Source of the DNA: Tetraselmis striata | Taxonomy: Eukaryota > Chlorophyta > Chlorodendrophyceae > Chlorodendrales > Chlorodendraceae | NCBI GenBank assembly: GCA_006384855.1 | Contig: VCJN01002425.1 | Span: 62,001-126,000, forward strand | DNA: 64,000 nucleotides | Direction: 5' to 3' | Shown: in pieces, positions 1-42,100 of the stretch | Layout of the letters: the number at the start of each line of letters is the position of its first letter | Position numbering within the stretch: position 1 is the first letter of the stretch | Notes under the pieces: generated by a model | Seen by the model: the letters and a program-made list of their open reading frames with translations, nothing else | What the model was told of the DNA's origin: nothing | Database searches by the model: none | Position numbers and translations under genes: made by a program

Positions 1-809
1 GATACAGGACCACGGATACCATTGGGGAACAATGACCGAGAACCTGGCTGGTTGGCATCTGAGGGTCACGTTTAGGGGTTAGGGGTTTGTCCTTTACTTG
101 AGAGTCAGTAACCCCCGGTTCTTTAATTGGGTCAGCCATGCGGTGTTTGGCGGCCGGCCCTGTCTAGGGCTGCCAGGAACCCAACACGGGAAACGCTTGA
201 GAGCAGGGAAGTCACATGGGGCCACAAGATTTGATGGCAGTGGGGAGGGAGAGAATGCAGACCCGCCAGGTCACTTCTTAAGCTGCTAGGGTTTCATGTC
301 TTTTTGGGTTGTTTATGGTTGAGGCGCAGCGACTTTGCTCGTGGGTCGGTGTCAAGTGTGTGAAGGGGAAGAGTATGGTTTCGGAGCCTTTGCACGAGCT
401 GACCCTGAGAATGATATTGTATCCGGACGGTACATCCCTAATAGCTAAGCGTATTCCTCTGGCTTGGCGGGTCAGAAAGTACTTGTGGCGGTTTGTATAC
501 ATAATTCCCGACGTTATACTTAAATTATTGTGTGTGACATCTGATATAATTACAATGTCTATATGTAGCTATATATAATTATATACATAATTACCAAAAC
601 TACACTTATTGTATGTGTGAATGTGTGTGTTTTTGTGTTCGGTGTACGCGCACATACTTTTTTCTTCTACTTCGCGACGGAGAGGATGGGAAGAAAACAT
701 AAACTCAAAGCGCGCCCAACCCCGACACACAGCAATGCACTCTCTTCTACGGCAACCCACGGCAACAGGGGGGCATCGGCTCGCGTGGCGGTCGAGCTGC
801 CCCGCGCAC
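1..809. other. No recognisable gene; flank beyond the helicase
   Basis: No exon with helicase or other recognisable coding content was found on either strand. The missing C-terminal exons of the helicase would be expected here if introns kept the size seen in the rest of the gene (about 90-900 bp), but none is visible. A short TTTAGGGGTTAGGGG-like stretch lies near 70-85. The part from about 540 to 620 is AT-rich. Confidence 0.5.
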
Positions 810-7845
<7,036 letters not shown>

Positions 7846-19470: not shown

Positions 19471-19947
19471 TAGCAAGCGCCCCTCCTGTATCTGATCGTA
19501 CATCTCCAGCATTGCAGCATGCGTCTAGTGGGGCGCTAGCTACTTGATCAATTTGACCGCATGCTTGCTCGAGAGGGAGCTTTCCAACCTCGTGGTGGGT
19601 CATGCAGGAGCAGCAGCAATCAGCGCTGCCAATGATACTTCGTGAGGAAGCCTCAGAGGCAGCGTGTGACAGTGCAGCATGCAGCAAGTATATACTCGCG
19701 CGTCGCCCTGCCTGCTGTAGCTGGCATTTATTGATTGTGGCAAACAGCAGTAAGCAGCGGTGCCTGGCTCCGTGTTTTGCCACCCCTCTACTGACCCCTA
19801 TACCACCCTGTAGCGTGTTTTTTTCCTTTTCTGTTCTATTCTGGGATTATTCTAATCTCTGGGATTCTTTGTTTGCTCGCTCAGGGTGTTTTAGAGTTTG
19901 TGAAGGTTGCCTTGGAGACAAGAAGCAGCTGAGGGTGATTTAGCATC
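19471..19947. other. 3' flank of the phosphatase-like gene
   Basis: No recognisable coding or RNA feature up to the start of the LTR-like repeat. Confidence 0.5.
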
Positions 19948-20404
19948 TGTTACGGTTCTCAGGGCTCAACAGAGCCCTTTGTACTGTCAGCAGCTACACC
20001 TGCTGGCTATGGGCTAAGCTGGGGCTGCTAGCTGGTGCACCTTGACACTGCTGTGGTCTAGTATATAATGCATGTTGAGCCTCCATTCTGGCGGCTCCCG
20101 TCTCTAAACTACTGGTTGAGATGGCGCCCAGAGTTGCATGACCATCTGAGGTCATTCTAGAGTGGGCATCTTCGCCACATGCCTGGGCGCTGATGGCTCT
20201 CTAGGCGCTCGGCTCCTGGGGGAACTCTCAGCTCCTTAATATATCACGCCATATATGTAAGATGTCTAAGTACTACTGCCAAATATCGGCGCAACACATC
20301 CAGCTCCCAGTGGGCAGTGCAGCCTGCCTAACACTGCAGCTGGTGGTCTTACAGTCAGATCAGCGGATCAACAAGAGACCAGTGTAATCTAGTACTACTT
20401 AACA
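19948..20404 (-). repeat. Copia LTR, copy 1
   Basis: On the minus strand it begins TGTTAAGTAG immediately after the purine-rich GAGGAGGGG and ends ...AACA. It is closely similar over about 420 bp to 21097-21521. The outer boundary at 19948 is set only by the terminal CA dinucleotide. Confidence 0.7.
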
Positions 20405-21071
20405 CCCCTCCTCACGCGTTGCTGCGGCTTGCGTATCATTCATGACCTCAGCGCTGAGTGCCTCAAATTGACGTCGTGGCAGTGCCTTGGTAAACATGTC
20501 TTCACACATCTCGTGAGTGGGCACATAGTGGATGTGCACGGCACCTGCTTGATGGGCGCCCCGCACGAAGTGAAGTCGGATGTCCAGATGCTTGGTGCGC
20601 GCTGACGTTGCATCCGTGGTGGCGATGACTATGCACGCCTGGTTGTCTTCACCAACGGGAGTGGGTGCTGTCTGCCGGAAGCCCAGTTCTCCTCGCATCT
20701 GGCGCAGGCAACCTGTCTCTTGCACTGTCATGCAGAGAGCGGTGTACTCTGCCTCTGCTGTGGATATGGCCACCAGTGCCTGTAATTTCGACAGGAATCT
20801 GATTGCTCCTCCGCAAAGGAAAAAGACGTGGCCAGTTGTAGATTGGCATTGACTGGGGTAGGTCGTTGGCGTCACCGTATCCAGGTAGTGTCAGCTTGTC
20901 GTCACCACGGAAGGTGATTCCACGGCTGCGTGTCCCCTTGAGGTGCCTCAGACACTGTCTTGCGTCCTCCATGTGTGTCTCGGTTGGGGTAGACATGAAG
21001 CGGCACAGCCGGGCGAATGACTGGCCAATATCTGGCCAAGTGGCGGCTGCGGCGTAGAGCAGAGCTCCCAC
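20399..21071 (-). pseudogene. Copia RNase H fragment, copy 1 (frameshifted)
   Basis: Carries the copia RNase H landmarks AEAEYTALC, RTKHLDIRLHFVRG and YVPTHEMCEDMFTKALP. The frame breaks near 20855: the upstream part (LLYAAAATWPDIGQSFARL ... GYGDANDLPQS) is in a different frame from the downstream part. At 21071 it is truncated abruptly into the second LTR-like repeat. Near-duplicate of 21516-22200. Confidence 0.85.
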
Positions 21072-21096
21072 AAGGCTGCGGTAGGTTCGACGTAGC

Positions 21097-21521
21097 CCGT
21101 AGTACTATCAGCAGCTACACGTGCTGGCTATGAGCTCAGCTGGGGCTGCTAGCTGGTGCACCTTGACACCGCTGTGGTCTAGTATATAGTGCATGTTGAG
21201 CCTCCATTCTGGCGGCTCCCGTCTCTAAACTACTGGTTGAGATGGCGCCCAGAGTTGCATGACCATCTGAGGTCATTCTAGAGTGGACATGTTCGCCACA
21301 TGCCTGCTGATGGCTCTCTAGGAGCTCGTCCCCTGGGAGAGCTCTCAGCTCCTTAATATATTACGCCATATATGTAATATGCCTAAGTACTACTGCCAAA
21401 TATCGGCGCAACACATCCAGCTCCCAGTGGGCAGGGCAGTCAGCCTAACACTGCAGCTGGTGGTCTTACAGTCAGATCAGCAGATCAACAACATACCAGT
21501 GTGATCTATTTCTACTTAACA
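21097..21521 (-). repeat. Copia LTR, copy 2
   Basis: Direct repeat of 19980-20404 with scattered substitutions and small indels. It again starts TGTTAAG after a GAGGAGGGG purine tract on the minus strand. Confidence 0.75.
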
Positions 21522-22460
21522 CCCCTCCTCACTGCTTGCTGCGGCTTGCGTATCATTCATGACCTCAGCGCTGAGTGCCTCAAATTGACGTCGTGGCAGT
21601 GCCTTGGTAAACATGTCTTCACACATCTCGTGAGTGGGCACATAGTGGATGTGCACGGCACCTGCTTGATGGGCGCCCCGCACGAAGTGAAGTCGGATGT
21701 CCAGATGCTTGGTGCGCGCTGGTGTTGCATCCGTGGTGGCGATTACTATGCACACCTGGTCGTCTTCACCAACGGGAGTGTGCTGTCTGCCGAAGCCCGG
21801 TTCTCCTCGCATCTGGCGCAGGAACACTGTCTCTTGCACTGTCATGCAGAGAGCGATGTACTCTGCCTCTGCTGCGGACAGGGCCACCAGTGCCTGGAAT
21901 TTCGACAGGAATCTGATTGCTCCTCCCCAAAGGAAGAAGACGTGGCCAGTTGAGATTTGCATTGACTGGGGTAGGTCGTTGGCGTCACCATATCCATGTA
22001 GTGTCAGCTTGTCGTCACCACGGAAGGTGATTCCACGGCTGCGTGTCCCCTTGAGGTGCCTCAGACACTGTCTTGCGTCCTCCATGTGTGTCTTGGTTGG
22101 GGTAGACATGAAGCGGCACAGCCGGGCGACTGACTCAGCAATATCTGGCCAAGTGGCGGCTGCGGCGTAGAGCAGAGCTCCCACAAGGCTGCGGTAGGTG
22201 CCGACCTCAGTGTCGGGGCACGGTTCGGACTCACGGGGGTCTTGGGCTAAACAAGGCGCTGTAGGCTCTGAGGATCGGGGCGTCGGGGGTAAAGCACTGT
22301 CTTCAGGAGTATCACTGCCGTTGCTGTCTGGGGCGCCGTATCGGTGTAGTGGTTGACTTGGCCAGTGCACACGCCTCACAGAACGGTAACCTGACGTGCT
22401 GGAGTTGACCATAGCGGGGGATGTCGTGGCCCGCCAGGGCGGCATCCATTGCCCGCTCAT
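21516..22460 (-). pseudogene. Copia pol C-terminal part: RNase H, copy 2
   Basis: A single open frame through SLVGALLYAAAATWPDIAE, GYGDANDLPQS, GHVFFLWGGAIRFLSKFQAL, AEAEYIALC, HLDIRLHFVRG and FTKALP. This is the RNase H and C-terminal part of a copia polyprotein, without the RT palm that normally precedes it. The upstream 100 residues (Pro/Ser-rich, HRYGAPDSNGSDTPEDS) resemble the linker before RT, so a deletion has joined the integrase linker to post-RT sequence. Confidence 0.85.
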
Positions 22461-23100
22461 GGAGATGACCGAGACGAGCGCTCCGCAGCATCTTGGTATG
22501 TTTCTTCGGTGAGCGCACTGCCAGCAGGCCTGTGGAGCTCGATGTGTCGGCGGACAGCGATGACTGAACAGTAGTGATTGCTGTGCTCAGCACAAAGAGC
22601 TGACCATTGACCTCAATGGGGACAGATACGGCGTCGGATAGCTGCATGGCATTGCGCCGAGCTGTCATCAGCACCTTGAAATCCGGGTTAGCTATCTGAG
22701 CGGCTCGCGCACTGAACAGCCTAAGTACGCGTCCATTTGATTTCGATGCCAGGTCGGGCACGAGTAGGCTGTTGCGGACCATAGAAGACACAGTGCGTCC
22801 ATCCTCAGTCTGCATGGTAAGGTGCATTGTGCCCACACCCACTGCGTAGGCGCCAAGCCCACTGACCCATCGCCGGCTTATCGTTTGGTAATCACCGGCG
22901 CTGGCATAGTCTGCGAAGCAGGCTGCCATGTGGGACGTGGCACCGGCGTCGAAAACCCATTGGTCAGGAAAGCTGTGGATGCTGGGCAGGGCTGTTTCAT
23001 CCCTCCAGGATGTCAATGAGATGCCGAGAGCCAACCAGCGAGCAACGTTGGCATCAATAACGCTCCAAGTGCACGATGTCGTAGGTCCTCAGATATCCCT
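22312..23100 (-). pseudogene. Copia aspartic protease and GAG-pre-integrase domain
   Basis: The protease signature WVFDAGATSHM (Ala where Ser/Thr is usual after Asp) is followed about 150 residues later by a GAG-pre-integrase region, LGHLHERAMDAALAG ... FCEACALAKSTTTP, with paired His and Cys of the integrase zinc finger. The frame stays open upstream of 23034 and overlaps the methyltransferase frame in the -1 register. The integrase DDE core is absent: soon after STTTP the sequence passes into the pre-RNase H linker. Confidence 0.85.
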
Positions 23101-24151
23101 GGGAGGTTGAGCGTGGACTGATCGAAGCCTGTGCTCTCGCAGCAGATGTCGCAATCGGGTTCCGTCCAGACTCCATCGAGAAGCAGCATGCCGCGGCCCG
23201 GAGTTGGGCCGTGCATTCTACATGCCCAGGTTCCCTTGCGAGACAGGAGTTTTGGAAGGACGCTGTCTTTCAGGTGCGGGGGAGCCGCCCATGCAGGCGA
23301 GAAGTTGCCACGGGTAAGCATGTCATCCACTGTCATCGGTGGTCTCACAAATCGCTGATAGTGTCGTCGCAGATCATCGAAACTGTGAATATTGGTCCAG
23401 AATAGAGTGTCGCGTCGTGCGGTGGAGCAGCCCAGTTTAAGCGCCCGTGCAAGCATGGACTGCGCAAGGGCTGCGCGGATCTGTGGTGATCGAGCCGCGC
23501 CAGTGACATTTTCCACCACGTAGTTGAGACCATGCGGCTGTTGGCGCTGGATCTCATAAGTGAGTCTGGTTGCCGCATGGAATGCCCGTGCTCGGTCGTC
23601 TCGCAGGCCTGTACCGAGGTCCGCAGCAGAGAACGGTTGACATGGTGGAAAGCTGACCAAAAAGTCGACAATTGGCAGGGACTGGAAGTCCTTAGCCAAG
23701 AGTTGGTTGACATCTTGTGATGGGAGGCGATTAAACGCATTGTACAGGCTGCACGTGGCAAGCTGTGAGACCATTTGCGTTGCAGAGTATGTAGCTCTGA
23801 CTGAGCTGCGGCTGCGATTGCACGGTTGTTCTCCACCAGTGTCACCATACCGAAATGATGCCCCAATGAGCACAGCTCATCAAGGATGGCGAAGGTTGCT
23901 CCGCTGCAGAGGCCAACGTAGTGAATAGGCCGTGACTTGCTGAAGGCCGTGCTATCTGGTTTCAGGTGTTTCAGGCTCCGACAGGGGAGCAATGTTGTCC
24001 TCGATGTCACGCTCTTTCTGTTGGCATGCAGCCCATGCTGACAGTTGGTCTGTAGCGTCAGTGCGGGTGCACCAATGCTGCGCGCGGCGGCGAGCTCGGC
24101 GGCGTTGACGCTGTGTGCGGCGTCGCCATCGTCGCTTGGCATCGCGGTCAA
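23013..24151 (-). pseudogene. C5-cytosine DNA methyltransferase module inside the copia element
   Basis: Predicted DNA (cytosine-5) methyltransferase, normally using S-adenosylmethionine. Motif I-like IHYVGLCSGATFAILDEL is followed by VTLVENNRAIAAAA (SAM-binding acidic turn). After a frameshift near 23795, motif IV PPCQPFS with the nucleophile Cys comes next, then motif VI ENV and the C-terminal RHRALGALLMPTLLAGWL block (motif X position). About 380 residues in two frames. The second frame stops at 23013, within the open protease frame. Placement between gag-like and protease regions, same strand and overlapping frames argue that it belongs to the element rather than to a host gene. As it stands the frameshift would prevent a full product unless the genome has sequence error there. 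Confidence 0.8.
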
Positions 24152-24267
24152 TCAGCCCATTGTCATGGTGACGAGGTTCATCGTGATGTAATTCTGCGAG
24201 CGCTGTCAGCTCACGCCTCAGGTAAGCATCTCCCGGGGAGTCATCATCCTAGTCCGGATCACTGCTG

Positions 24268-25027
24268 TCATCGGTGGAGTCGGGAGCGAGACGGCGTGCC
24301 AGGGTCGGTTTCTCCCTTCGCGTGTTTTGTGCGCGCAGAGCGCTCATGCTCATCCTCATCAGAGTCATCTGATGTGTCAGAGTCGGATTCGATACCAGGC
24401 ATGTCTCCATCACTGTTTGTCTGGTTAGTGTGGGTATTGTTGATATGCATCAAGTTGCCTACGCCTGGAGTGTTGCGCAACCATCTGGAGTGCGTTGATA
24501 GTGGATGCCATGCCGGGCGCGGGATGTTCATGGCGGATGATGAGCGCATTGAACAGATCCTCGGCTTTCTAGCGAGCAGGTGAGAGCCATAGAAGTCGTA
24601 GCCTTGAGGTGTGCTCTGAAACGTTTCCACAGCCGCAACTGCAGCTGAGCTCTCCACCTGCTCTGTGTGAGAATTGCGAGCCAGAGAGGTCTTGTCTGGC
24701 TGAGCAGGCGTCTTGGGCGGGGGCTGGCGTCGGCCCTGCTTGCGGCAGAAAGCCTGAGACATCTGGCGCTTGGTGCGACAGCCACTCGGCAGGAGCGCGG
24801 TTTGCTGCGGCGATGCGGCTGGTACATGCTTGACATTGGTACACGTACTGATGTAGCCATTTGAGCTTGTTGTCATGGCGTTGCGAGGGGCTGAGGATTT
24901 CCGGCTCCGAAATTAACTCCTCGATTTCCATGACATGTGCTGCAACCACCACCTCCATCGCGGCTTGTGTGGCCCGTTTTTCCACCGCGAGGCCATGTGC
25001 TCGCGCGAGTGTCGCACGCTGACGCAC
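24268..25027 (-). pseudogene. Possible gag region of the copia element
   Basis: Two overlapping minus-strand frames upstream of the methyltransferase: a Pro/Gln-rich, Ser-rich part and an acidic tail (DSDTSDDSDEDEHE). Position suggests gag, but no CCHC knuckle was found. No confident identity. Confidence 0.35.
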
Positions 25028-27200
25028 AAGTGTTGGTGTATCTTCATGTGTTGGTGCCTGTCTGCATGCCGCACATGCGGCGGTTGGAGAGGACGTTGTG
25101 GGCTACGTTGGCAGCATGTACCAGCGTAAACGATGGTCAAATCATCACACCAAGAAGCCCCCCCACTGAACCCTACAAGCAGGATATGATTACAGTTCTG
25201 GAAGACATGCTCTTCACTATGCAGTCTGACTTAGCAAGCGCGAAAGCTGAGGCAGCAGAGCTTTCGTCAGCTTTGCAAGAAGCGCAACATTTCGCACGGG
25301 AGGCGCGGGCTCATGCCAGCTCAAGCAGTACCCACGCTGTTCGGGGGGCAAAAGCAGCTAGTGGTGCTGTTGCTCATCACGCTGCAGCAGTGCGCAAAGT
25401 CCAGGATGCATGCAATGAGAATGAGCAGCTTCGGGCAACCCTACTGGCTGAAGAGCGCATTAATCGGAACACGTGTGAGGAGCTGAAATTGCTAGTGCCA
25501 AAAGGAGCCGCGAAGAGGCCTTACGGCAGTTGGAAAACTAGCGCAAAACGACACGCCTCCAGTCGACGGAGACAGCCAAGCAGCGCACAATCCTGTCATT
25601 CAGCTCCGCGCCGCCAAGAGAGGTATCCGGCAACTATACCATCCCAAAGCTGTTTGAGGGGTTGGGGCTGCGAAAGACTGGCAGTGGCGATCCCATCCCC
25701 AGAGATTTGGAGGACACCAGCTTCCAGAAGCATCCAGCTGAACCGGGGGCAAAACGGCAGAGTCAGCTCATGGAGAGACTCAACTATCCAAACGATGCAG
25801 TGTTGGAAACGTATCTCCATGATCCAACTTAAAAAGACACTTTGTTTGAGATGTACGCTGCTTGCCGGTACATGCTCGCGCGGCTGCACAATGCCTTGGC
25901 AATTGACCTGATTTCATTGCAGCACAACAATTTTCTGAATAACGTCACATTTTTGTATTAGGGAATGCACATCATCTGCGCAGACATGCTTTCTAATGGC
26001 TATCGCGTCTAAGATGCCCATCGTCACCGGCGCAGTGGAAATGTTCAATTTGTCTCAGGACCCAAATGAGCGGTCCCAAATCTTGTCCACACTGGTGCGC
26101 GTGTTTGACCGCCATAGCCTGAACAACCTTGGCTTCAAGGGTGCTATTTCCAAGCACGCCTTCACGCGTGCCGGCACCATGCTGCTGCATTCGGACCGGG
26201 ACGACAAAAGTGGAATCACCTCACACAGATCCGGCGCACCCGTGGGAATTGCCTTATGGCGTATTGGCGCTTCGAATACAGCCCAGACGGAACATGGCTT
26301 AGCATCACGTTCTTCAAGCATGCCATCTGTGGCGAGGGACGCTTCATTGGTGCAGACATGGTAGCCAAGAACTTTGTGGACGGCACACCGCAAGGGCCGA
26401 CAGGGGTGAAGATCCAGGGCTGCGTCTTTTGTGAGGCTGCGGAGAAGTTCAAACGGACGCCTGTCACTGCCATTCCACCATTACCCGGAGGAGCTGTGGA
26501 GGGGGCGCAACCCCAGCATGATGCTGCTACTCGCCCAGTAGGCGGAGATGCAAGCAACGTCGTCCTGGACGCCGATACAGCGCATGTCCAGCCCCCTGCC
26601 CGTGTTGGTCTGTGCACGAAGCGCAAACCAGGTCTGCAAGAGTAGGACAGGCAGAAATGTGTGAAAATAGCCCAAGATAGGCATGCCGCAGAGCAAAGAA
26701 CCTATCATGGACCTCCGGAGCAGCGGCGGCAAAGGGCATTGGTGCCATGTGAAAGGTTGCAGGCGCTTTTTCATGTGACAGCATATGTATTTTTTGCCTC
26801 AAATTGTATGGGTACATGTGCAGCTTACATCATAGCGCTGATAGTTTGTGCGTAATGCTCGTTTTGTCTAATAGGTCTACATTCTGGTTGCAAAAGCACA
26901 TGGAGGGTGATGGCTGCCCTGACGCAGGCACCAATCCATTTCGGTGCAGCACGTACCGCTTGAAGAAATCGGTGCCCTTCTGTCATCAACGCCATGTGCC
27001 GCGCGAAGAGTGTCTGTGGACATCCGGCGCATCTGGCAAGTGCAAGTTCCGTGCTCCGGAATCGCCGGAGCATTGGTCTTTCCGGACTCAGTTTTCTGGG
27101 CACAAGCAAGCATTATTTGTTAGCAAATGGCACAGACAGTGATAAAGAAGAAGAATTTGGCAGCAAGCTTGCCGGACCTTTTATTGGACAATGATGATTA
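24937..27200 (+). pseudogene. Unrecognised decayed coding region (coiled coil, then Cys-rich)
   Basis: Plus-strand fragments read in shifting frames. 25180-25500: Ala/Glu-rich coiled coil (MITVLEDMLFTMQSDLASAK ...). 25620-25910: KLFEGLGLRKTGSGDPIPR and DTLFEMYAACRYMLARL. 25996-26240: MAIASKMPIVTGAVEMFNLS. 26256-26645: YWRFEYSPDGTWLSITFF ... GADMVAKNF. 26880-27140: Cys/His-rich (CPDAGTNPFRCS, FCHQRHVPREECLW). Frame changes at about 25550, 26250 and 26700 could be introns or decay. The order and single strand suggest one original gene, perhaps of a mobile element. Not recognised. Confidence 0.4.
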
Positions 27201-28330
27201 GGATATAGTTAGTTGGGGATGATGATGGTGTAGAGTAGTTTATATTTCTGCCAGCACATTATTAGTGCGCAATTTAGCATCATCATGGACGCATACAGCG
27301 AGCACATATTTCATGTCGTTTTGTAATGAAAAATGCATCTACAAGCGCTTGGCCAAATTTGGCGCATGGGGCTTCGCCCCCCGACCCCCATGGACCAGGA
27401 CTACGTTGACCGTTGACCCGTTGACCCGTTGACCGCGCTCTCAGGACCAAGGGTCATTTCCCGTAGAATCCCATACATACTTCTCATTTATCAACTCTTA
27501 AGTGGCCCGGACGTGAGCAGGGAGGCGGGCAGGCAGGCTCCCCCGCTCTCGATTTCGGAAATGGATCGCTGCAGTACCTAATACTAATCGACAGAACTCC
27601 ACGCGGGTCGACCCATTGCATTCCAGGTTTGGCCGCTCCGGATTCCAGTACTTGATAGAACACGCAGGTCGCACCGGTAGTGTCGAATTTCGCGGCCACT
27701 CAACTGGAAGGGATAAGGGAACATATCTGGCCAAGGCACTACGGGTAACTGGATTGGCGACGACTCAACGACTACAGCCGATCCAGTTGCCTGGGCTTTA
27801 TGTTGCGGTGATCTCGTATCGTAGTACTTTACAGCAGGACTTCTCTTCGCAGTGGATGTCATCTTCTTGTACTTGTGTAAATTAGCGACTTCAGTTCAGG
27901 AAAAATCCACAGCTTAATAAAGCAGTATCGGGACTGTACCCTGTACTAAAATATCACTACTAGATCAGCATCAAGATCACTAGCTAGATCACCTGTAGTA
28001 TGTAAAAAGTCCGGGGACGAAAAAAAGCTGTAATAAAAATGAATTCAAGCCACCGAAAAGTACTGGTGCCCGTAGTAGGTATGTAGGTCGTCGTAGCCTC
28101 GTAGGGCCCCTTGCGTTGATCCCGCCGTGTGCTGATAATATCCGCTGCAAGGGTTTCCCTGCCAGTCCAGTCCCGGAGGCGGAGGCGAAAAAAAATCCGC
28201 CCAGCCAGTACCCGTACAGCAGTACGGTACTGGTACTGTACCTATGTTGGCGGATTTGTTACTGGCCCACTGGTGTGAATTACAAAAAGGACAGTTCCCC
28301 AGAATTAGAAAATCAACACAGCAAGCCGCC
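27200..28330. other. Non-coding stretch
   Basis: No gene recognised. Holds a tandem TTGACCCG array at about 27404-27434 (four units). The 28000-28330 part shares AGCCGCC/AAAAGCGGCCCGC words with the LINE 3' end at 49.05 kb and with 31.8 kb. Confidence 0.5.
27404..27434 (+). repeat. Tandem CGTTGACC, about four units
   Basis: Consecutive CGTTGACC units, the first one base short, directly visible. Confidence 0.85.
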
Positions 28331-28334
28331 TAAA

Positions 28335-28850
28335 AGCGGCCCGCATCCCGCATGAGGCGGGATGGATGAGTGATACGCGCACGGTTCAGAGTCCGGGCCA
28401 CGCGAGCACGTGTGTGTGTGGGTGATCCTCGGACGTGCTGTGCAGCTTCAGCAACGGGATGGCAGACGAATCTGCGCCGTCTGATGAGGCAGCGAGCGCG
28501 CTCTCGAGCGGCCACCAAGCTCAGGACCCCGAGGAAATCTCTTGCGAGCAAGGCCTCCTGGTGAGCCCGGGTGATGCACCGAGTGCCCCGCGATGAGAGG
28601 GCACCCCGATCCGCAGCCAAGCATGCGATACCACGCACTGTGCGGTGCACCCCCTTGCTCACCTCACTCACTGTGCCGAAGACCATGCCCGTGTACTCCG
28701 ACATATCCAGGATGTCTCGAAGAGGACCCTTCTGCCCGGGCTCCGTGTTGTGCCACGCCGCATCCCGCGCAGCCAACCCCCCTTGTATGTCGCCCAACAG
28801 GGAGCGCTCAAACCGATCCACAGCCGTGGCCCGAGGCACTGGCCCACTGG
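28335..28850 (-). mobile_element. 5'-truncated copy of the LINE 3' end
   Basis: Minus-strand sequence matches 48545-49070 closely. It encodes TAVDRFERSLLGDIQGGLAARD and PLRDILDMSEYTGMVFGT in the same order, then the shared 3' untranslated region. It ends in the hairpin CATCCCGC-ATGAG-GCGGGATG and the GCCGC-C-TAAAA-GCGGC hairpin. Homology stops abruptly near 28850, the typical outcome of incomplete reverse transcription. Confidence 0.85.
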
Positions 28851-31183: not shown

Positions 31184-31880
31184 CAGTCATTGAATATGGG
31201 GTATACATAAGTGGTATTGAGCATTGGAAATCCTCAGTCGGTATGGAATTCCAAGTATCCTGGAATTCCTCAAGGAATTCCTGGCGCCCACGTCTCGCCG
31301 ACTTGCGGGCCGCCTTTCAGCGGCTTGTCTCGATATCCCCTAGGTAGGCAGTGTGGATTAATCCTTACTAGGGTTTCTTATTGCCTTTTCGGGTGATCTC
31401 CTGATCGCCCTTTGCAGCTAGCTCATGTAAATTAATTAGTCCTTACTGCTTAGTGCGGTGGATGTTTTACTGATTACCTTTTGCCATCCACAGTTGAGGT
31501 AAGGATTCCTATCGGTACCCGTATGAGCAGGTACCATTGTGCCGCTGCTGCGTTGTTGCTTCGCGGCGCGCGGGCCGCGCGGCCGGCGGCAGGGATCAAT
31601 AGCTACCAGTACGGTACCTATACTGTCGTGAATTACAATTGAAGGGCAGCAGGAAATCCACCTACCGTTACAAGCTCCACCCCGCAGTCGCTGTAGAGGA
31701 CCTTTCTGATTGTCCTTTTTTGTGATTTCCTGATATCGCCCCCTGCTCCTAGATACCTCATTTAATTTACTAAAAGATCAACACCGCAAGCAAGCCGCCC
31801 AAAAGCGGCCCGCACCGCCGCCCGATATTTACGGCTACCATGTTGTACGGTACTGATATGTTCTAAGCCAGTTATTTATG
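31184..31880. other. Repeat remnants, no gene
   Basis: Holds two copies of the GATTTCCTGATATCGCC / GCTAGCTCATGTAAATT block (about 31385-31440 and 31715-31765). An AGCCGCCCAAAAGCGGCCCGC word near 31798 matches the LINE 3' terminus. Confidence 0.5.
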
Positions 31881-32071
31881 ATCTAAAATAGTTTATGGGG
31901 TTTCCTCCCTTGAGCTAACTGCTTTTCAGCTACAAGTGCTGCTCAGTGGTACGGGAACTGTCGTGGCACCTGTCGTGGCGCCCTTTTTGGGTGCAGCACG
32001 AGTAGACACCCCATAACAGCCATAACAGTTGAGCCTGCCATCTTCCAGTTTTCGCTGCGTTCCACGCAGCG
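31881..32071 (+). repeat. DIRS element 1, left repeat A
   Basis: About 190 bp from GTTTATGGGGTTTCCTCCC to TTCCACGCAGCG. It matches 38893-39080 in direct orientation, and 59780-59985 and 62740-62912 in reverse complement. Confidence 0.85.
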
Positions 32072-32187
32072 ATGTAAAAACTGTCTCGTAACCTGTTGCG
32101 AGCAAGGTCACCCCAGGTTGTTCAAGACCACACCCGGCTCACCACCCGTGTGTGATATTCTCATCCGTACGTCCGCCGTGCGTCACC

Positions 32188-33518
32188 ATGCCAGATGGAG
32201 AAGAACCCGTCGTTGAGCCGACGCTCGAGTCGCCACACGCAGACGTGAAGGCCCAATCTACATTACTGCGCGAGCTTGCCACATCATTGGCTCAATTGAC
32301 GGCTCGTGAGCGCGTTGTTGATGGAGAAGGAGCACATGGGCAGCGCATTGCGGGACAGCCGACACGCGGCGGGGGAGCCGCACAGCGCCATGACTTGCTA
32401 GAGCTAACCCAGAGCGGCCGTGTCGGAGCAAAATCCGCGAGTGAGTGATGACTACCTCGCGGTGCCAGAGCTACTGCAACTACGAGCAGAGTATGGTTAC
32501 GAGGCCGTTCGACCGGCCAGCCGAGTGCATGGACTCTTCCCGACCTAACGAACGAGTACCTCAAGCAAGATGATCGGCGTCTGCCGGCCCAGGAGGAGTA
32601 TCTATGGATGTCGTGTTTCGGCGCCCACATGGCCGCACTTTTCGTGGCACTAGACGAACTGCTGCCCTCCGTCCCTGCTGCTAGTCAGGACTTCACCCCC
32701 TACCTCGCGAGAGCTCGGAACCACGCCGAGGCCATCGACAAGGCGTTTCGCTTTCGTTTGGCCTTACGAAGGCTTAATGAGGTCAAGCGTGTGCACGGTG
32801 ACCAAGGTGTTCTGGACGTGCTGCGAGCCCAGCACTTTCAGCCTGCTTATGAGCATCTGGATTCTGCGATTTTTTGGGACATCGTGAGGGACTACGAGCG
32901 TCGCGTCTTCGAGACGACAGTGAGCACGAGTGACGCTGTGGGGCGCCTTTCGTCGGAGCTGATGGAGCTTTGCGAGGCCACCTTTCGGTGACCGCCGCAA
33001 AGCGCACCCTTGCAGCTCAACGACGGGATGAGCGCCATGTTTCAGGACCTGCCCCCCCCCCCCCCCCCCCCACCCCCACCTTACAGACTTCATTTAGACC
33101 TTCCTCGGTTCGGCGCTTCCTACAGCTACAGCCGAGTGCGGCTCAACCATCCGCACACATGCACATGGCGGCTCAACCAACCGCCTCCCGTACCATTTCA
33201 TCATTGCGTCCGTCGGTTGTCACACTGCGTGTTACAACCGATTCGCAACGACCAAGCTTCGCGCGTGTACGTTACGCGCGTGACAGGCGCTACGAGCGCA
33301 AGGGACGCGCGGGGCGGCCCTCTTACCTGAACCTAGCCCCGCAAACCCGTACTGGCACTACTGCAAACCCGTCCAGCAACTACCGGCTAACCGCCGGGAA
33401 CCTAACCGCTGCTGCCGAGTACTTTGCAAACAGACGTCGTCCTCTTGGTACTATGTCGGTACAACGACGCACTTACGTAATTGACGAGCCCGAAGCTGTC
33501 GCCCCTTGGGCTGCTTGA
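32188..33518 (+). pseudogene. DIRS element 1 gag-like region
   Basis: ATG 32188 begins MPDGEEPVVEPTLESPHADV. Later frames carry YLARARNHAEAIDKAFRFRL, DIVRDYERRVFETTV and MSVQRRTYVIDEPEAV. The last two blocks recur in element 2 (MRDYERRVFEATIA; MSVKRRTCVIDEPEAL), so both copies derive from one element family. Stops and frame changes at about 32450, 32550 and 32990 show decay. A C tract lies near 33053-33070. Called gag-like from its position before the recombinase, not from a known domain. Confidence 0.6.
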
Positions 33519-33949
33519 CTGCGATCACGACTGCAAGATGCTTTCGGCTCAGACGAACTAGGAGAGCGGACGCTCGACCTGCTCTCCAGCTCCCTCACCA
33601 CTCAGACACTCCAGAGCTACGCCACAGCGCAGTTCCGGGCCCGAAAATCGGACATGTTAACGTACGCGACGCGTACGCGCCCTCCAATACCTTTGAGCGT
33701 ACTGGCAGTCACCATAGTGCCCGACCTATGTCTAGAGACCTTGTAGATACCTCTGCGAAGCCCTTTGGGGGCAGTACATGCGGTGTCGGGAGGCGGCTGG
33801 TGCGCAGGCGGTGGGGGCGACCTGGCGGCCGCATACAATCAGGATGCAACATCTGCCACTCCACGGCATGTCACAGAAGCTTGCATAACACATGTGCTTA
33901 CAACAGCCACGTCTTTTGACCCCCTCCCCCCGTCCTCCGTCCGGGTACC

Positions 33950-35290
33950 ATGGGCTACAAGTCAAAGAAACGGCAGTCTGAGAAAGCCGCGGCGATGCCG
34001 GTGGTGATGGAGGAGGCGGGGCGGGTGCCAGCGGCAGCGGCATGCCGGCCGGGCCGTCGTCGCATGCATCAGCAGCGACGACTCGTGTGTCGACCCAACT
34101 GCAAAACCTCGAGTCAGAGGTCAAGTACATGCTGAAGAGAGCAACGGAGCGTTGTTGGAGGGAGGTTGTCAACAGGCAGAAAGAAGTGGAGAAGGAGCTG
34201 CGGTCCCAACTTGCGGCGGAGGAGAGGGCGCGAGTGGGGGCGGACATCTGCGCCGGAAGCGCGACAAGAAGGTAGCGCGCCTAAAAGCCAAGATACGGCT
34301 CATGTGCGAGTCAAATGGCAGCGAGGTCGAGTCAGTTGGCAGTGAAGGCAGCGGCAATGACGAGGAAGGCGGGGGCCAAAAGCCGGGGAGGGAGCGGCCG
34401 GCAGGCCTGTCCTACAAGATGCGGGAGGCGACGACCCGAGCGACGGTGCGCAAGTTCATCGGCCGCAAGGCCGAGCAGCTGGAGGCTTTGCTCACCCACG
34501 CAGTCGGAGACGACGACAGCTGGCAGTCTGTGTATGCGGAGGGCGGGCCCGGCGCACAGTTTGGAGCCCCTTCCGGCGGTGACGAAGGAGCGGAGCAGCA
34601 GCAGCATCAGGGCGATGTCGACGCGCATGGAGCTGACGGCGGGGAGGAGGCGGGCATCATGGAGGAGGCGGACCTAGTGGGCCAGCCAGCGGATGTGCGA
34701 GCAGCTCACACCCCCCGCGTGTTATCCTAGGCGCCCTCCTAGCCAACTACCCCGAGTTGCTGGCCTCCATATTGGAGTCTAGGCAGTTTGAACATCACTT
34801 GAAAGCAGCAGAGAGGCGTACCCTGCTGGCCATTAGAAAGCTGTGGGAGCACAACGCTGTGCATGTCCACACTGACCTGAAGCTATCTCAAGATGCCTTT
34901 CAGCGTCTCATCAACCTCAGCAGCTCCGTCCAAGGGGGACGCGGACATGGCGAAGCATGTGCAGATGGTGCTGCCATATGGCAACTTGATGATCAAATGG
35001 CCATCAGTGGAGGACATGCTGAAAGGGCAGGGGGAGGAGCTGGCTGCTGTGGGGCTCAGCATTACGGAGGACATGATATCAAGCACATTGGATCTCAAGC
35101 TGGTGCTTCGGCATCGTGCCAGGCTACGGCTGAAGGAGGGGCTCGTCAAACCCGGGGAGTCTCAGCATCCAGCTAGTTGCTGATGCCACAGGAATCTTCA
35201 GTGCCACAAGGACTAATGGCACAACTGTGGTGCTGAAGGTATGCTGCAACTATATTTTGATGTCATTTATAGTCATTGTGTTTACACAAC
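33950..35290 (+). pseudogene. Unrecognised protein of the TIR insertion, plus-strand module
   Basis: Frames in order: an N-terminal basic and Ala-rich part with coiled coil (TQLQNLESEVKYMLKRATER), KVARLKAKIRLMCESNGSEV, SYKMREATTRATVRKFIGRK, an acidic Gly/Gln-rich linker, LASILESRQFEHHLKAAERR, MVLPYGNLMIKWPSVEDMLK and LSIQLVADATGIFSATRTNG. Frame changes near 34270, 34735, 34930 and 35165 may be introns or decay. No transposase family recognised; DATG could be an acidic catalytic position but this is speculation. Confidence 0.4.
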
Positions 35291-35516
35291 ATGTCACTAA
35301 AAGGGATGGTGATGTTATGGCTGCGCAGAGTGTTTGGGCACTGGGCATGTGGCTAAGGTAAAGCGAGAGAAGCATGAGCAGACACATGCCAGCCTGGAGC
35401 GCAAGTTCCCGGAGCACACCTTTAACACATCCCGTGCGGCAAAGAAATAGGTTGGAAATGTAAGTACACACATGCTGGCATCCTCCCGCAATGCCGCCTA
35501 TGCATGCTGGTGACTA

Positions 35517-36720
35517 TCAGCGACGCCGCCTTTTTCCCGGCTTCTTGAACTGCCCCAGAAAATCTGTCACCCATGCGTCATAATCATACACCCCCCTAGG
35601 TGGTGGCGGCACCTCAGACAGGTCCATGGAATATTTCACGCCAGGTGCCTTACCCTGCCCATTGAACATGGGATCGCGGCTGGGGGAATAGTTGCCGTTG
35701 GCAGCCAGCCTCTTTCGCCCACCTGGCACAACGAGCATCCGAAGACGCTCATTGCGCTTGGCAAGGTAGCCTCCTCCAACGCCCTCCCCTCTTTGCGCCT
35801 CCCGCTTAGCACGAGCATTAGCTTGCTTCTCCAGCCACGCCGCGTGATCCCCGTATGTCACGAAGCCGGCCACAGCCTTCGTTAGCGCCGGGTGCTGATA
35901 CCTCATGGCAGTGACTGGGTAGTACTTAATGTGCCCTTGCTGACCCCAACATGGCCTCAGGGCGGGCTCAGGAAAGCCCCACGTGCAAGCCTGATGGATG
36001 AGCTGCTCCACGTCTGGCAGCTGCAGCTTATCCTTGTATATCTCTGGCTCCCCCAGCACTGACTGCTGGAACTTGTACTGCACATACTCGCGCTGGTCAC
36101 ACGCCCATGGGGGGGATATGGGGGTACCAGGTCACCTTCGCCTGCTCAAACATGAGCTCCATCGCGCGCATTGTGAAGAAGACGTAGCCACGCACGAGGC
36201 GGCCGACTCCATGCTTCTCGCTGTCGCCGCGCTCGCAGTACTTGGCCGAGGAATACTCCCGGTCTCACGCCTCCAGGCTCGGCTCCCGACACTTCTTGAC
36301 GATGTCGTTGACCCAATTGGCAAGCAGCGCCGAGGGGAAGCCGCAAAGCTTAAAGGACTTGGCGGCATTCGAGAGCCGCCAGTCCCGGCCGAGCTCATTC
36401 CACGCGGCCAATTGGAACTGCGCCTCCCACGTTGCCCGCTCCACGACCGCCACCGGGGCCAGAAGAGGGCCGAAGCATGCTGTGCATGCGGTGTTCTTGT
36501 AGCGCTGCGGCTCCGAGGCGTAGGCTTCCTCGAAGCACTCCACCAGGCACTCAGGCACTCGCCCTCTAGGACGCGGCTCCGCCGATTTACGGCCGCCATT
36601 AGCCCTCCCTACGTGACGGGCGGCACATGTGCAGCAGAGGGGCAGTGAGGGGAACTTCTTTGATAGGGAAAAACTCGACAAACCCCCGTGTGCGTTCATG
36701 CAACTGGTCCTAAGGAACAC
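35517..36720 (-). pseudogene. Unrecognised protein of the TIR insertion, minus-strand module
   Basis: The upstream frame (36720-36265) has paired cysteines (LCCTCAARHVGR; NTACTACFGPL) and WEAQFQLAAWNELGRDWRLS. The downstream frame (36083-35517) reads LPDVEQLIHQACTWGFPEPA, GHIKYYPVTAMRYQHPALTK and ends in a basic KKPGKRRRR tail. The two may be exons of one gene. Convergent with the plus-strand module, so the insertion could be a two-gene DNA transposon. No family recognised. Confidence 0.4.
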
Positions 36721-38892
36721 GATGGGCGAAAAAATGCCACGCGAACGGGGATGGCGAAGGAGGCGTGCTCATCCCCGTGGCAACGAGTGGGTGAGTGAGT
36801 GGGTGGTTGCGAGCCACGCCCAACCCAAACCCACCTGGAGGTGCCGGTCTCGCAGGCAGATGCGCGTATGCTCCCACCTACATGTCGGTCAACGCTATGG
36901 GTGCACTACCCTGGAAGGGCGCTGGCCGAGAGCGGGTAGCAGGTGCGCACGGTGGGCCGGGCGAGGATGACCCTGCAATGGGTGAGGCGGTTGTGCGGGG
37001 CGTCTCGCTGACGCGGCTTTTTACACTCGTGTCCCGCGCGCGCGCGATACTAAAATGTCCGCGCGTATTATAGCGGAAATTTGCTGTGGCCGGCAGACTG
37101 TCTCAGTTCGCGGAGTTCTGCCACGACTCCGAGAACATCAGCCCGCTGGAGGCAACGACTCCTACTGTCGTCCGGTACGTTGCCTGGATTGATGAGCGAG
37201 GGCACATTGGAGCTAAGTCACTGCAACCCTACCTGTCTGCAATCCACACGTTCTTCGAGCTGCACAACCTCGACCCAATCGCCAAGGACAGTCCACACCA
37301 GACTGCAGCTAGGCGTGGGCTGATGCTGCGGCAGCGACGTCTGGAAGCCGCCCCTGTGCGAGTTCCTCTGCCTGCTAATAATGTAGCTTACAGCTTCGTC
37401 GAACATGCCGAGTTGATTGTATCTGCTCCCACCACAGAGTACCAACACGACTTCCGAGCCCTCGTGGCCTCGGTTGTCAACTTCATGTTCTTTGCCAGGG
37501 GCCAGGGGACTTACTGGCGTGTCCTGCCGAGTGCGGGATGTGCATGTCGACGACTACAACATTACCCTGCATGTGTACCGCGAGAAAGGCCGCGCTGGCC
37601 GACAGTGACCCGACGACCTGCGCGTGCTTCTCCTGCCGGTGTCAGAACACCCCCGAGTTGCACGTCTCCTGCACCACTTCATCGACAACGTACAGTCTGT
37701 CCCCCTGGTTACTGTTGCCTTGGCTGAAATAAACTTCTGGGCGGTCACCCCGAGCGAGCAGTCCAAACCTTATACCGGCCGCATGGCATTCAGCAGGTTC
37801 CAGGCGGCCGGCGTTGCTACCGGCAAGTGACCCTGCCTTCCCTTCCTACCACACAGCGTGCGCCGACCTCTTCCCACTGTGCTATCTAGGGGCTCCCGGC
37901 CGGCCGGCGCTTGGAAATTGGACGCGGCCTGTGCCCACTGGGCCCTATGTCCAGCACTCCTCGCAGCAAGTCAGCCGGGCAAATGCGCGTCTGCACCCTC
38001 CGGGAGGAAGAAATGGGGGACGACGACCTAGGCTCGCTAAAGAAGAAAGTCTGTGTGGTGTGGGACGAGGACAATCTCATCAATAATGAGGGCATCAAGG
38101 CGGACATAAACTGCCAAAAAATAGACGAGCCAGACACCCCCTTCGTGCGCTCCCCCTTGCGTGAGACGGACAGCAACGACGATGAGCAAGGTGAGGGGCT
38201 TCGCCAACCTCGCCCCGTCCTGCTTTGCAACCTCGGCCGCGGGGGATACGGGGAAGGGTAGAGGGGAGGGGGATTGCAGAAAACAGAAAGAGCTAGCTGG
38301 GCGAGGCTGGGCAAGCATAGTGGGCAAAAGTCCACTGCGCTGCGGCACCCTCACCCACAACTACTCCTATTGCTACAGCCACAGCCACAGTCGCTATGAG
38401 ACTACGACTCGCTACTCCACCCACCAGGCATGATTAGCTATACGGATGTATGCAGCCTGTTGCTTCGTCCCCCTGGCGTAAGCAAGCATCCGGGATTGGC
38501 TGTCTACACTATCGGATTGGTTGTCTACAACCGTCCGTCTTGTCGGTGCTGCCCCTCCCGCCGGCACTTCCTAGACCTCACACAACCTTCGCAAGGGAGC
38601 AGCGTCTGCCGCCAACGCCATCGGAGTTCCATTGTCCCACATTCGCTACCAAGGCGGTTGGGCCACTAACTGCGACGTCGTTTTGGACTACATCGACCCC
38701 AACGTTCTTCCTTCACTTGGCGCATGGTTCTTCTTTGGCCATATCGCCCCCCTCCGCCACTTCCAAGTCCAACATGACTCCGCAGCGGTGGCCTTCCCGG
38801 TGCCCCCTTCATGACATGGCGCTACCCCTTCTCCGTCAGTCCACCGCTCTCTCCGTTCGCTCATGACTGGCAAAACCAGACTCAACTTTGAA

Positions 38893-39205
38893 ATGATTCA
38901 AACTAGTTTATGGGGTTTCCTCCCTTGACCTAACCGCTTTTCAGCTACAAGTGCAGCTCAGTGGTACGGGAACTAGGCACCTGTCGTGGCGCCCTTTTTG
39001 GGTGCAGCACGAGTAGACATAAAAGCAGCCATAACAGTTGAGCCTGCCATCTCCCAGTTTTCGCTGCGTTCCACGCAGCGCCCTCCCTGACTCCGTTTTC
39101 CCTCCACGAATTTCACTTTACCTTCCTGCCAATTTCGGCTCTTGACCGTGTAAAACAGCCTGCGCGACCTTTTTGGCATAACCAGACTCAACTTTGAAAT
39201 TTTTT
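38893..39205 (+). repeat. DIRS element 1, right repeats A and B
   Basis: A (38893-39080) repeats 31881-32071. B (39081-39205, CCCTCCCTGACTCCGTTTTC to ACTCAACTTTGAAAT) recurs in reverse complement at about 59665-59779 and in the same orientation at about 62915-63046, where it lies inverted relative to the adjoining A copy. Confidence 0.85.
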
Positions 39206-39360
39206 CTACGAGATAGCTCTGGCGCGGCGCCCGGAGCGCGCGTGTGCGCGCGCACGATTGCGGAGGCCGGTCAGGGCCACCACTTGCCTTCACGTAGCAC
39301 GGCGGACCGACCGGTCACTCTCCCATGCTGTGGCACGCTCCATCGAGCGCACCACAGCAA
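39206..39360 (+). repeat. Direct repeat C, left copy
   Basis: GAGATAGCTCTGGCGCGGCGC, GTGTGCGCGCGCACGATTGCGG, GGACCGACCGGTCACTCTCC and CGCACCACAGC occur in the same order and spacing at 41950-42100. Contains the self-complementary GTGTGCGCGCGCAC. Confidence 0.85.
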
Positions 39361-39768
39361 AATCGCGGCAATTTTGCCGCGCAGGGTGCTGGTCTTCCGC
39401 CATCGTACCATGTACGGTGAGCGAAGCCTTTCGGGGCCCGCCCTGGGAGAAACCGTTAGGGTTTGTGTGGTTAATGGACGCGCGCCGCTTGCGACATGCG
39501 AACTACTACCCGCGAACGAGCTGCTAATTACTCGCCTAACGCGAGGAGAGGACGAAGCTGCAGCGCTTCCCCATTAAGTGGAACAAGGTCTAAGCCCTTC
39601 GACCAGTGTCGACCAACATGCCAACCCATGGCTGCCCTTTCCCTTTGGGCGGCATGGCTCGATCCGTACTGGCCCCTACTCGGCGTAGGTGTCGCGATGC
39701 GCTCCGACTGGGGCGTATGCCGACGCATGCCCGTCGTCTAGTGCAAATTCGAGTACTCTGACAGTACT

Positions 39769-41960
39769 GTGCCAGTGGCCAAGCCAGCGCCCAGTGGCAC
39801 ATGGCTACTCCCACGCCGCGGCACTCCTATTGTGCCGCGCACCGTGGACCCTGACGCCGACGCGGAGAGGGCCAACAGAGCGACAAGGCGCTCTGCTCGC
39901 CCCCCTCGCGACATCCATCGCGCCAATTCATGTACTCCCGACTCCCCCTTTATGAGACATCGCGTCCGTCGTAATCTCGGCAACTGGCAAGCCGCTAGTG
40001 CGAATCGCAATGTTCTCAACTGGATCTCCAAAGGTGTATGCGTTCCTTTCTTGGACGGGCTTGCTCCACCTTCTTTTCATCAGGGGGTGTCAATGGGGGA
40101 TGCTACTCCTGCCCAACTGGAGTTTATGGACGGTGAATTGGCTCGCTTCCTGGCCGTTGGGGCCTAGGAGCGAGGCTACTGCGCAAAATGGGTGTCCCGG
40201 CTGTTCTTGGTTTCTAAGCCTAGAACAAACAAATGGAGGTTCATCATTGACCTTCGCCCCATGAACCGCTATTGCGAGACGCGCGATATATCGTTCGAGA
40301 CGCTTTCGCATTTGCGCAATCTGGCGCGCCCTGGGGACTACATGTTGCAGATGGACATGCAGGATGGGTTTTACGCGGTTGGGAATCGCCCCTGAGGACA
40401 TGGAGTTTTTCATTGTCGATTACCGTGGCACTCTGTACCGACTGGCTGGCCTTCCCATGGGCCGGTCTCTGCCCCCCTATTACTTCTGCCAATTCACCAA
40501 CGTCCTCACTATATATAGGGCATTGCGTCGTAACCCGGCTGAAGTAGACGGCACACCTATTCCCCGGTGCCGATTTGGCATACGCATGTTGCCCTACATA
40601 CATGGACGATTTCCTGTTTCTAGCTCGGACTCGGGCTGAGGCCATCTGGCAACGTGTCTACATCGAACGCCACCTCTCGGGATTTGGCCTGCGGCGCAAC
40701 CCCAACAAGGGCGTGTGGGAGCCCACCCAAAAGCTCGTGCACCTGGGGTTATAAATTGACACATCGGCGTCGCCTATTCTTCGTGCACCCGCTGAGAAAC
40801 TCGCCGGCATTGCTCGCGCAGGCCAAACGCCTAATCAACGAGCAAAACGCGATCGTCGGTGGCTGCCAGCTCGCAAGTTGGCCGCTCTCGCGGGCAAATG
40901 ACATTTTCTCTACTTGGCCATCGCCCCTGCCCGTTCCTACCTCCGTGAGCTGCATGATGTGCCCAAGACGCGCGACTCTTGGTCCGGCCGCATCAAGCTC
41001 ACTCGCCAGCTCGAATCTGCGATCTGCAATGGTAAGTGGGCGTGCCCACCCAACACAACGGCCGCCCCATTAACCGCCCTATCGAAATCGGATACTTACA
41101 CGTTGACAGTTCGTCGTACAGTTGGGGTGCCTTTCTGAACGAACACCATGAAGCTCGGGGTTTTTGGTACGACGACGACCGCACTGCGCACATTATCCTT
41201 AAAGAGCTCAAAGCCGTCCGCTTGGCTATTGAGTCCTTCCTCCCCATGCTCCGTAACCGTCACATCCGCTTGCACGAGGATTACCTCGCGGTTGTCGGCG
41301 TCCTCACCAACCTCATTTCTCGCTCTCCGCGCCTCATGGCTGAGCTACGCAAAAAATTGGAACCTCGTGGACACGCATGGCATTACCCTTTCCGTGCGCT
41401 ACATCCGTTCTGCGGCGATTAGTTGGGCTGACCGCCTTAGTCGCGAGGTTGACTGCGACGACAAGTATTGTTGTTCAACCCTCGTCGATTCGCCTAGCTC
41501 ACTGCTAAATGGGGCGCCTGCACCATCGACCGCTTCGCGACGTCCGAAAACGCCCTCCTACCCCGCTACAACGCCCGCTGGCGTGACCCACGGTGCGAGG
41601 CCGTCGACGCAATGCGCCTCTCCGACGCCGCATGGCGTTGCGAACGTAACTGGTGTAACCCTCCATGGAACCTCATCGGCGATCTTGTCTCCAAACTGGA
41701 GTCCAGCGGTGCCCCAGCCATCGTCGTTGTTCCCTACTGGCCTAACAAAGCTTGGTACCAGCTCCTCTCGGAGATGTGCTCCGACATGCGCTCCTGTTGG
41801 AAGCCGCGCCACGACCTCTTCATTCCTGGCCGTACTGGCGACCGCCTTCCCGTGGGGGCACCCTGCTGGCCTGTCGTCGCCTTCAACATTCCCGCCCATG
41901 ATCCCCGCCCATGGCCTGCTGCGCCCGGCATTTTCTCGTCGGCAATCCAGACGAGATAGC
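39769..41960 (+). pseudogene. DIRS reverse transcriptase, RNase H and NPPW methyltransferase-like domain
   Basis: RT: KWVSRLFLVSKPRTNKWRFI, IDLRPMNRYC, MLQMDMQDGFYAVG, LAGLPMGRSLPPY, then YMDDFLFLART (catalytic box, about 40600-40630). RNase H: GYLHVDSSSYSWGAFLNEHH, ARGFWYDDDRTAHIILKELK, AVRLAIESFLPMLRNRHIRL, IRSAAISWADRLSRE. C-terminal domain: GACTIDRFATSENALLPRYN, then NWCNPPWNLIGDLV, the Dam-like (N6-adenine) motif IV position known from DIRS elements, and VVVPYWPNKAWYQLL. An in-frame TAG (40165) and frameshifts near 40390, 40590, 40750, 41040, 41400 and 41510 make it non-functional. Confidence 0.85.
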
Positions 41961-42100
41961 CCTGGCGCGGCGCGCGTAGCTCGCGTGTGCGCGCGCACGA
42001 TTGCGGGGGCCGGTTAGAGCCACCACCTGCCTACACGGCGGACCGACCGGTCACTCTCCTTTGCTGTGGCACGCTCCACCGAACGCACCACAGCCCGCCC
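41948..42100 (+). repeat. Direct repeat C, right copy
   Basis: Repeats 39206-39360 (see that entry). Its start overlaps the end of the methyltransferase-like coding block, where the shared word is ACGAGATAGC. Confidence 0.85.

Follow-up and report, generated by a model that had tools for sequence, protein, structure and literature searches.

A decayed copia retrotransposon with a C5-cytosine methyltransferase and its complete relatives in the genome of Tetraselmis striata

A decayed copia element (a Ty1-type long terminal repeat, LTR, retrotransposon) with a C5-cytosine methyltransferase (MTase) domain was identified on the minus strand at positions 19,974-25,030 of a 64,000-nucleotide stretch (the window) of the chlorophyte alga Tetraselmis striata (assembly GCA_006384855.1, contig VCJN01002425.1, positions 62,001 to 126,000). 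An earlier note, made from the sequence alone, had read 22312..24900 as a copia retrotransposon carrying its own MTase. This reading is supported, except that the window copy is itself a dead relic of one family. Complete relatives elsewhere in the genome carry the MTase between gag and protease in one open reading frame (ORF). It seems probable, from comparison of these sequences, that the relic stems from a copia lineage that long ago captured a C5-cytosine MTase as a domain of its gag-protease polyprotein, and that the enzyme would be packaged and would mark the cDNA of the element.

Complete copia elements and the relic in the window

The assembly (224,097,584 bases) was searched with the MTase profile PF00145, 123 of 337 candidates being scored. 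Many of the matches lie inside open frames of 1000-2300 amino acids. The first 20 places were picked above all for the length of their open frames and for variety; 19 of them are copia elements and the remaining one (L147) is of the long interspersed nuclear element (LINE) type. Pfam assigned L131, L137, L140, L148 and L142 to copia; in the remaining 14 the assignment comes from motifs together with LTR pairs. Copies with both domains between two LTRs, for which the earlier note had proposed a genome search, were thus found, in open polyproteins.

The elements encode single ORFs of up to 2,483 amino acids in the order gag, MTase, protease, integrase, reverse transcriptase (RT) and RNase H. The ORF of L131 (2299 amino acids) contains zf-CCHC (residues 281-297), PF00145 (872-957, E-value 7e-12), Pol_BBD (1137-1205), gag_pre-integrs (1288-1334), rve (1351-1447, under the cut-off), SH3 (1508-1576) and RVT_2 (1803-2050, 1.4e-63). 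In L148 (2483 amino acids) the domains follow one another in the same way, zf-CCHC and gag_pre-integrs falling under the cut-off, and this set of domains is shared by L131, L148 and L137 (PF00145 up to 7e-12, RVT_2 up to 1.4e-63), some single matches again being under the cut-off. The copia order of rve before RVT_2 was found in L131, L148, L137 and L142, rve being above the cut-off only in L148.

The two LTRs of a copy are 98.7-100% identical (0 to 5 mismatches) in all 19 copia copies. These belong to three families, A, B and C, for which the near-identical LTR pairs show recent insertion. In family C, 5-bp target duplications and TG..CA ends were found in 7 of 7 copies (the LTR ends are shiftable by up to 13 nt). 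In families A and B, 4-5 bp repeats flank the blast-defined ends in 6 of 12 copies, and none of the 12 under the TG..CA rule. The ORFs of L136, L139 and L140 (1767-1806 amino acids) lack the RT motif YxDD and contain the MTase and an integrase motif, and their LTRs are 99.4-100% identical. This suggests recently moved non-autonomous forms with RT supplied in trans; the absence of RVT_2 was confirmed by Pfam in L140, the one of the three that this check covered.

The relic consists of a gag-side remnant, the C5-cytosine MTase, protease, GAG-pre-integrase, RNase H and an LTR, followed by a second RNase H-LTR fragment. The element is longer than the earlier note gave it, extending 5′ as far as about 25,030 and 3′ as far as 19,974. 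Its parts are:

23930..25030, minus strand: what is left of the polyprotein ahead of the MTase, beginning at about ORF residue 559 of L148 (blastn); zero Pfam families above the cut-off
23030..23930, minus strand: C5-cytosine MTase domain broken by frameshifts (PF00145, TIGR00675 and own profile; in frame in L148 and L131), with motif I in one frame, motifs IV-VIII in the frame 23876-23016 and the motif X end in the protease frame
22312..23088, minus strand: ORF with copia protease (DAGATSHM, Pol_BBD) and GAG-pre-integrase (Pfam; 88% DNA identity to L148)
22254..22332, minus strand: deletion joint, with integrase core, SH3 and RT gone (blastn pieces against L148)
21522..22247, minus strand: RT end and RNase H coding part, then polypurine tract (blastn to L148; alignment of the two copies); Pfam scans gave no family
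21095..21521, minus strand: 3′ LTR of about 427 bp (90% identity to the L148 LTRs, 92.8% to the second LTR)
20405..21086, minus strand: second RT-end and RNase H fragment of the same family, 5′-truncated (89.5% identity to L148)
19974..20404, minus strand: LTR of the second fragment (self-comparison of the window and blastn against L148)

By blastn, window positions 22332-25030 are 88.3% identical to L148:3661-6352 and positions 21094-22247 are about 89.6% identical to L148:8692-9857 (LTR included), while the second 3′ fragment was matched at 19901-21086. The two 3′ units of the window are 94% identical to each other (compared unit 21094-22199). The stretches 6352-7375 and 7446-8692 of L148 are deleted, and a 75-base island between SH3 and RT survives at the joint. 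Relative to L148 the relic is devoid of the 5′ LTR, the first ORF part with the zinc knuckle, integrase core and SH3, and RT; a third LTR was not found in the 64-kb window.

The MTase core itself is real. PF00145 matched it above the cut-off (5.1e-7) and TIGR00675 below it (6e-10), and a profile of 102 prokaryotic and viral C5 MTase ORFs matched the relic frame with 1.9e-11, the next of 1361 window pieces having an E-value of 5.8. The adjoining copia protease and GAG-pre-integrase, which the earlier note had placed directly after the MTase, gave Pfam matches under the cut-off (Pol_BBD 5.6e-4, gag_pre-integrs 7.2e-4) but are backed by 88% DNA identity to the complete elements L148 and L149. Motif I lies in another frame than PPCQPFS and by itself is without clear statistical support in the relic; it is credible because the intact relatives have it in frame. 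The block "RHRALGALL" is partly read out of frame, half of it being a product of frameshift decay; its counterpart in intact L148 reads LRRRALGACIDANVARWL, the second half of which falls in the protease frame of the relic. The overlapping reading frames are present in the relic but are the product of frameshift decay, since L148 and L131 read MTase and protease in one frame. Between relic and L148, the ratio of nonsynonymous to synonymous substitution rates (dN/dS) of the MTase is 0.40 over 249 codons. Single-sequence structure prediction of the relic MTase gave no usable fold (mean predicted local distance difference test score, pLDDT, 36.5).

Families, descent and conservation of the methyltransferase

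Five copia families (A-E) carry the MTase at the same place, with RT identities between them down to 37%. Motif IV precedes the protease motif by 230-251 amino acids in the 23 copia copies measured. In at least 22 places a PF00145 match is followed 753-800 nt downstream on the same strand by a protease match, a count that sets 123 MTase matches against the best 72 of 150 protease matches, among which the family B and C copies examined do not occur. The 150 protease matches are those scored out of 328 candidates, and families D and E were found through the protease at places without a PF00145 match. The MTase is present in 3 of 3 places of family D (L151, L162 and L165, the last with a broken frame), although PF00145 gave only 5.8e-4, under the cut-off, for L151, and likewise in 3 of 3 places of family E (L152-L154). 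Of eight further PF00145 places, seven have MTases of families B or C; in L169 and L172 the MTase is followed by no more than the distal end of the protease-integrase region, the frames are broken in L166-L168 and L170, and L173 showed no match. The copy numbers of the families are lower bounds. The zf-CCHC domain is above the cut-off in family A ORFs and under it in L148 (B) and L151 (D), and was not reported by the Pfam scan for L142 (C) and L152 (E). Pol_BBD was found in families A, B, D and E and was not reported for L142, though L142 has the D(S/T)GA motif.

In addition, an MTase-less copia family with an ORF of 1561 amino acids was identified, in which gag leads straight to the protease in 2 of 2 places (L155 and L163). 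A further place, L164, gave no MTase match, and no gag-protease ORF was recognised there; its RT (L161) groups with the MTase-less family. Elements of this family make up much of the RT and protease matches listed. Many of their matches lie on C805, C776, C440, C1303 and C1435, and they are clustered on some contigs, perhaps at centromeres.

The earlier note had considered that other copies of this family might lack the MTase at this position while the MTase occurs alone as a host gene or in an unrelated insertion. As far as this was tested, other copies have the MTase at the same position, and MTase-less copia elements do exist but form a separate RT lineage. The stand-alone MTases L123-L130 (see below) are only remote relatives, with E-values of 2.6e-4 to 0.029 against the element profile, a comparison outside which lie exon-like and maybe host-encoded PF00145 matches such as those on C726, C1756 and C11.

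The RT tree (10 sequences, profile-based RT extraction) groups families A, B and D (98/97) as well as C and E (96/97), with the MTase-less family between them. In the MTase tree (18 sequences, without the L123 and L130 ORFs, which failed the motif filter) the ten element enzymes cluster together (96/96), apart from six prokaryotic enzymes, DNMT3A and L129. The cluster again joins C with E (91/93) and D with A and B (98/99), and the LINE-type enzyme stands outside the copia ones with weak support (81/77). The agreement of the two trees fits one capture in a copia ancestor followed by descent with the element, whereby one gain and one gain plus one loss look alike without an outgroup. Of the tree proposed in the earlier note, the single group of element enzymes was obtained; with DNMT3A, the six prokaryotic enzymes and L129 as its references, and no DNMT1, CMT, DNMT5 or other eukaryotic ones, it gives no placement among the DNMT1, DNMT3, DNMT5 and CMT classes. 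The element enzymes lie beside the one DNMT3A on long branches as against the prokaryotic enzymes, and their motif IV reads PCQ, PCA or CCE, compared with PCN in DNMT3A.

MTase identities between families go down to 30%. By a simple counting method, dN/dS of the MTase ranges from 0.04 to 0.43 for pairs within a family (defined for 10 of the 12, but not for two that are near-identical) and from 0.25 to 0.39 for pairs from different families (3 of the 4, the fourth being saturated), the pairs not being independent of each other. At the level of codons, these ratios show purifying selection on the MTase. The catalytic Cys and ENV were found in 24 of 24 domains (23 copia, 1 LINE-type), with Cys-Cys for Pro-Cys in family E. 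Across seven enzymes with identities down to about 30%, the catalytic Cys, ENV, the motif VIII Arg (R190) and G306 and N312 of motif X are invariant.

The LINE-type carrier L147 (C2687:15400-25399) has a single ORF (2-7795, plus strand) with the domains RVT_1 (1.7e-25), PCIF1_WW (PF12237, 8.4e-15), PF00145 (1e-8) and RNase_H (8.3e-11) in this order. The ORF matched the copia MTase profile with 9.6e-61, and its MTase shares a clade with those of the copia elements. The PCIF1-like part matched solved PCIF1 with 3.6e-6, and its activity is doubtful because NPEY replaces the NPPF of PCIF1. PF00145 matches over the range and with the E-value of L147 were found on C653, C2172 and C596. Tentatively, unrelated retroelements of one genome may have come to share a module from a single cytosine MTase clade. 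It would have a fixed place between gag and protease in a copia lineage that is old, diversified and still inserting, and would lie between RT and RNase H in a LINE-type element with a PCIF1-like MTase, two replication types then marking their own nucleic acids with enzymes of their own.

Possible role of the enzyme

The MTase would be made as part of Gag-Pol. Because it lies directly upstream of the protease, it should be packaged into the virus-like particle and cut free there by the adjacent protease, at the site of reverse transcription. This location makes methylation of the cDNA the most direct role. The enzyme would methylate cytosines of the element cDNA after reverse transcription, and new copies would arrive pre-marked, either passing as host DNA or inserting in a low-damage silent state. 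A role in cDNA methylation was proposed for DIRS elements in the relevant section of de Mendoza et al. (2018; PMC5890265). In nine complete elements the observed/expected ratio is 0.74-0.89 for CpG (flanks 0.85-1.11) and 1.28-1.42 for TpG, and the depletion of CpG agrees weakly with methylated elements.

Several observations weigh against this role. The CpG depletion is mild and confounded by coding content, and the stretch of the MTase-less L155 also has a ratio of 0.88. Since MTase-less 1561-aa elements are abundant among the matches listed, the enzyme is not needed for spread. The MTase is retained in the RT-less copies with near-identical LTRs, and it may therefore work in trans or be a hitchhiker. 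Moreover, family C has a weak S-adenosylmethionine motif I (PCHGPSA), the PCQ motif is PCA in family D and PCCE in family E, and the pattern used for motif VIII had no match in L140; because of these deviations some of the enzymes may be weak or dead.

The substrate of the domain could be RNA instead of cDNA (the genomic RNA, the tRNA primer or RNA of the host), in the manner of DNMT2, which methylates tRNA; we regard this as unlikely. The same MTase clade lies beside the PCIF1-like domain in the LINE-type ORF, PCIF1 being an enzyme that methylates the cap-adjacent adenosine of mRNA, and DNMT2 is among the best PDB matches of the relic MTase frame, though not significantly (E-value 0.56). RNA methylation is also raised for LINE enzymes in part of the 2018 work (PMC5890265). 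However, the profile of seven element enzymes fits DNMT2 (6.9e-8) no better than M.HaeIII (3.1e-10) or DNMT3A (2.3e-8).

It is similarly improbable that catalysis was lost in part of the lineage and that the domain binds nucleic acid or has a structural function within Gag-Pol. The substitutions in motif I and PCQ of families C, D and E would agree with this, as would the constant position of the MTase next to the protease in the copies examined in full, but the invariance of Cys, ENV, R190, G306 and N312 speaks against it. Self-restraint, in which the element would place methyl marks on itself or nearby to keep its expression low, sparing the host, appears just as doubtful. It would match the CpG depletion and TpG excess and the large share of MTase-less elements among the score-ranked RT matches listed, as a less restrained element might show, a comparison of abundance that holds only for those matches; yet the MTase-bearing families have near-identical LTR pairs too. 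Finally, a host MTase gene lying beside a copia fragment by chance or decay, which the relic alone with its broken frames and missing 5′ LTR would allow, has practically no probability in view of complete one-ORF elements, five families and the spacing of 753-800 nt in at least 22 places.

Other methyltransferases, repeats and known systems

A bacterial-type C5 MTase ORF of 323-325 amino acids was found at seven places (L123-L128 and L130, on C1993, C776, C1647, C2337, C355, C1455 and C2272). A conserved second ORF adjoins it in all three places looked at (L123, L124 and L130), and these ORFs probably represent another mobile element with its own MTase. Three PF00145 matches with strong scores lie on C1230. 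In L129 (C2385 near 456294-457154) a C5 MTase ORF was seen by eye between transposase-like and RNA-polymerase-like ORFs in a stretch of lower GC content (0.537), possibly an endogenous large DNA virus. In the window, repeated fragments in both orientations occupy 31878-42094 and 59654-63045, with a Phage_int_SAM_1 match under the cut-off (1.9e-3) at 37074-37724; they may be a tyrosine-recombinase element. An inverted repeat pair of about 530 bp with 93% identity is located at 28310-28841 and 48558-49083.

DNA methyltransferases are known from dinoflagellate LINE and DIRS elements and from a charophyte Gypsy element, and the Symbiodinium copia elements in the same account are without any DNMT domain (de Mendoza et al., 2018; PMC5890265). 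An opinion article of 2019 attributes C5 MTases to Ty3/Gypsy and DIRS elements (PMC6338049). A sentence of a 2025 paper (PMC12344493) describes DNMT3 members as embedded in "LTR Copia and DIRS" elements and so names copia as a carrier. It concerns DNMT3, does not itself describe the architecture, and cites the 2018 work, whose LTR element is Gypsy; the wording may be a slip for Gypsy or an unpublished detail. A copia-borne MTase is not named in the excerpts of PMC9998398 and PMC12477816, and searches of open-licence PubMed Central turned up no account of a copia polyprotein with the order gag-MTase-protease.

The closest known likeness is KnitGypsy-Dnmt3 of Klebsormidium nitens, an LTR retrotransposon whose polyprotein ORF includes a C5 MTase under purifying selection (Ka/Ks < 0.2 for KnitGypsy in the 2018 work). 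In contrast to this Ty3/Gypsy element, the elements described here are copia with integrase before an RVT_2 RT, and their enzyme, located between gag and protease, has a PCQ-type motif, whereas that of KnitGypsy is a Dnmt3. SymbioLINE-Dnmt and SymbioDIRS-Dnmt3 of Symbiodinium are likewise retroelement C5 MTases in a protist with two element classes per genome. There the classes carry different enzyme groups, whereas here copia and the LINE-type ORF carry one clade; in SymbioLINE-Dnmt the ORF that contains the DNMT precedes the RT ORF, whereas in L147 the MTase lies between RT and RNase H in one ORF. With Pseudoviridae (Ty1-copia) the elements share the LTRs, the zinc knuckle, the order protease-integrase-RT-RNase H and the RVT_2 RT, and differ by the MTase of about 340 residues inserted before the protease.

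The system in T. striata bears on why retrotransposons capture DNA methyltransferases and on what elements gain by marking nucleic acid. The position of a C5 MTase directly beside the gag-pol protease points to packaging and maturation in the particle. An old capture is kept at one fixed site in five copia families, and the MTase-less copia elements of the same genome are a natural control. Families with and without the enzyme in one cell would thus allow one to ask whether it protects, hides or restrains the element.

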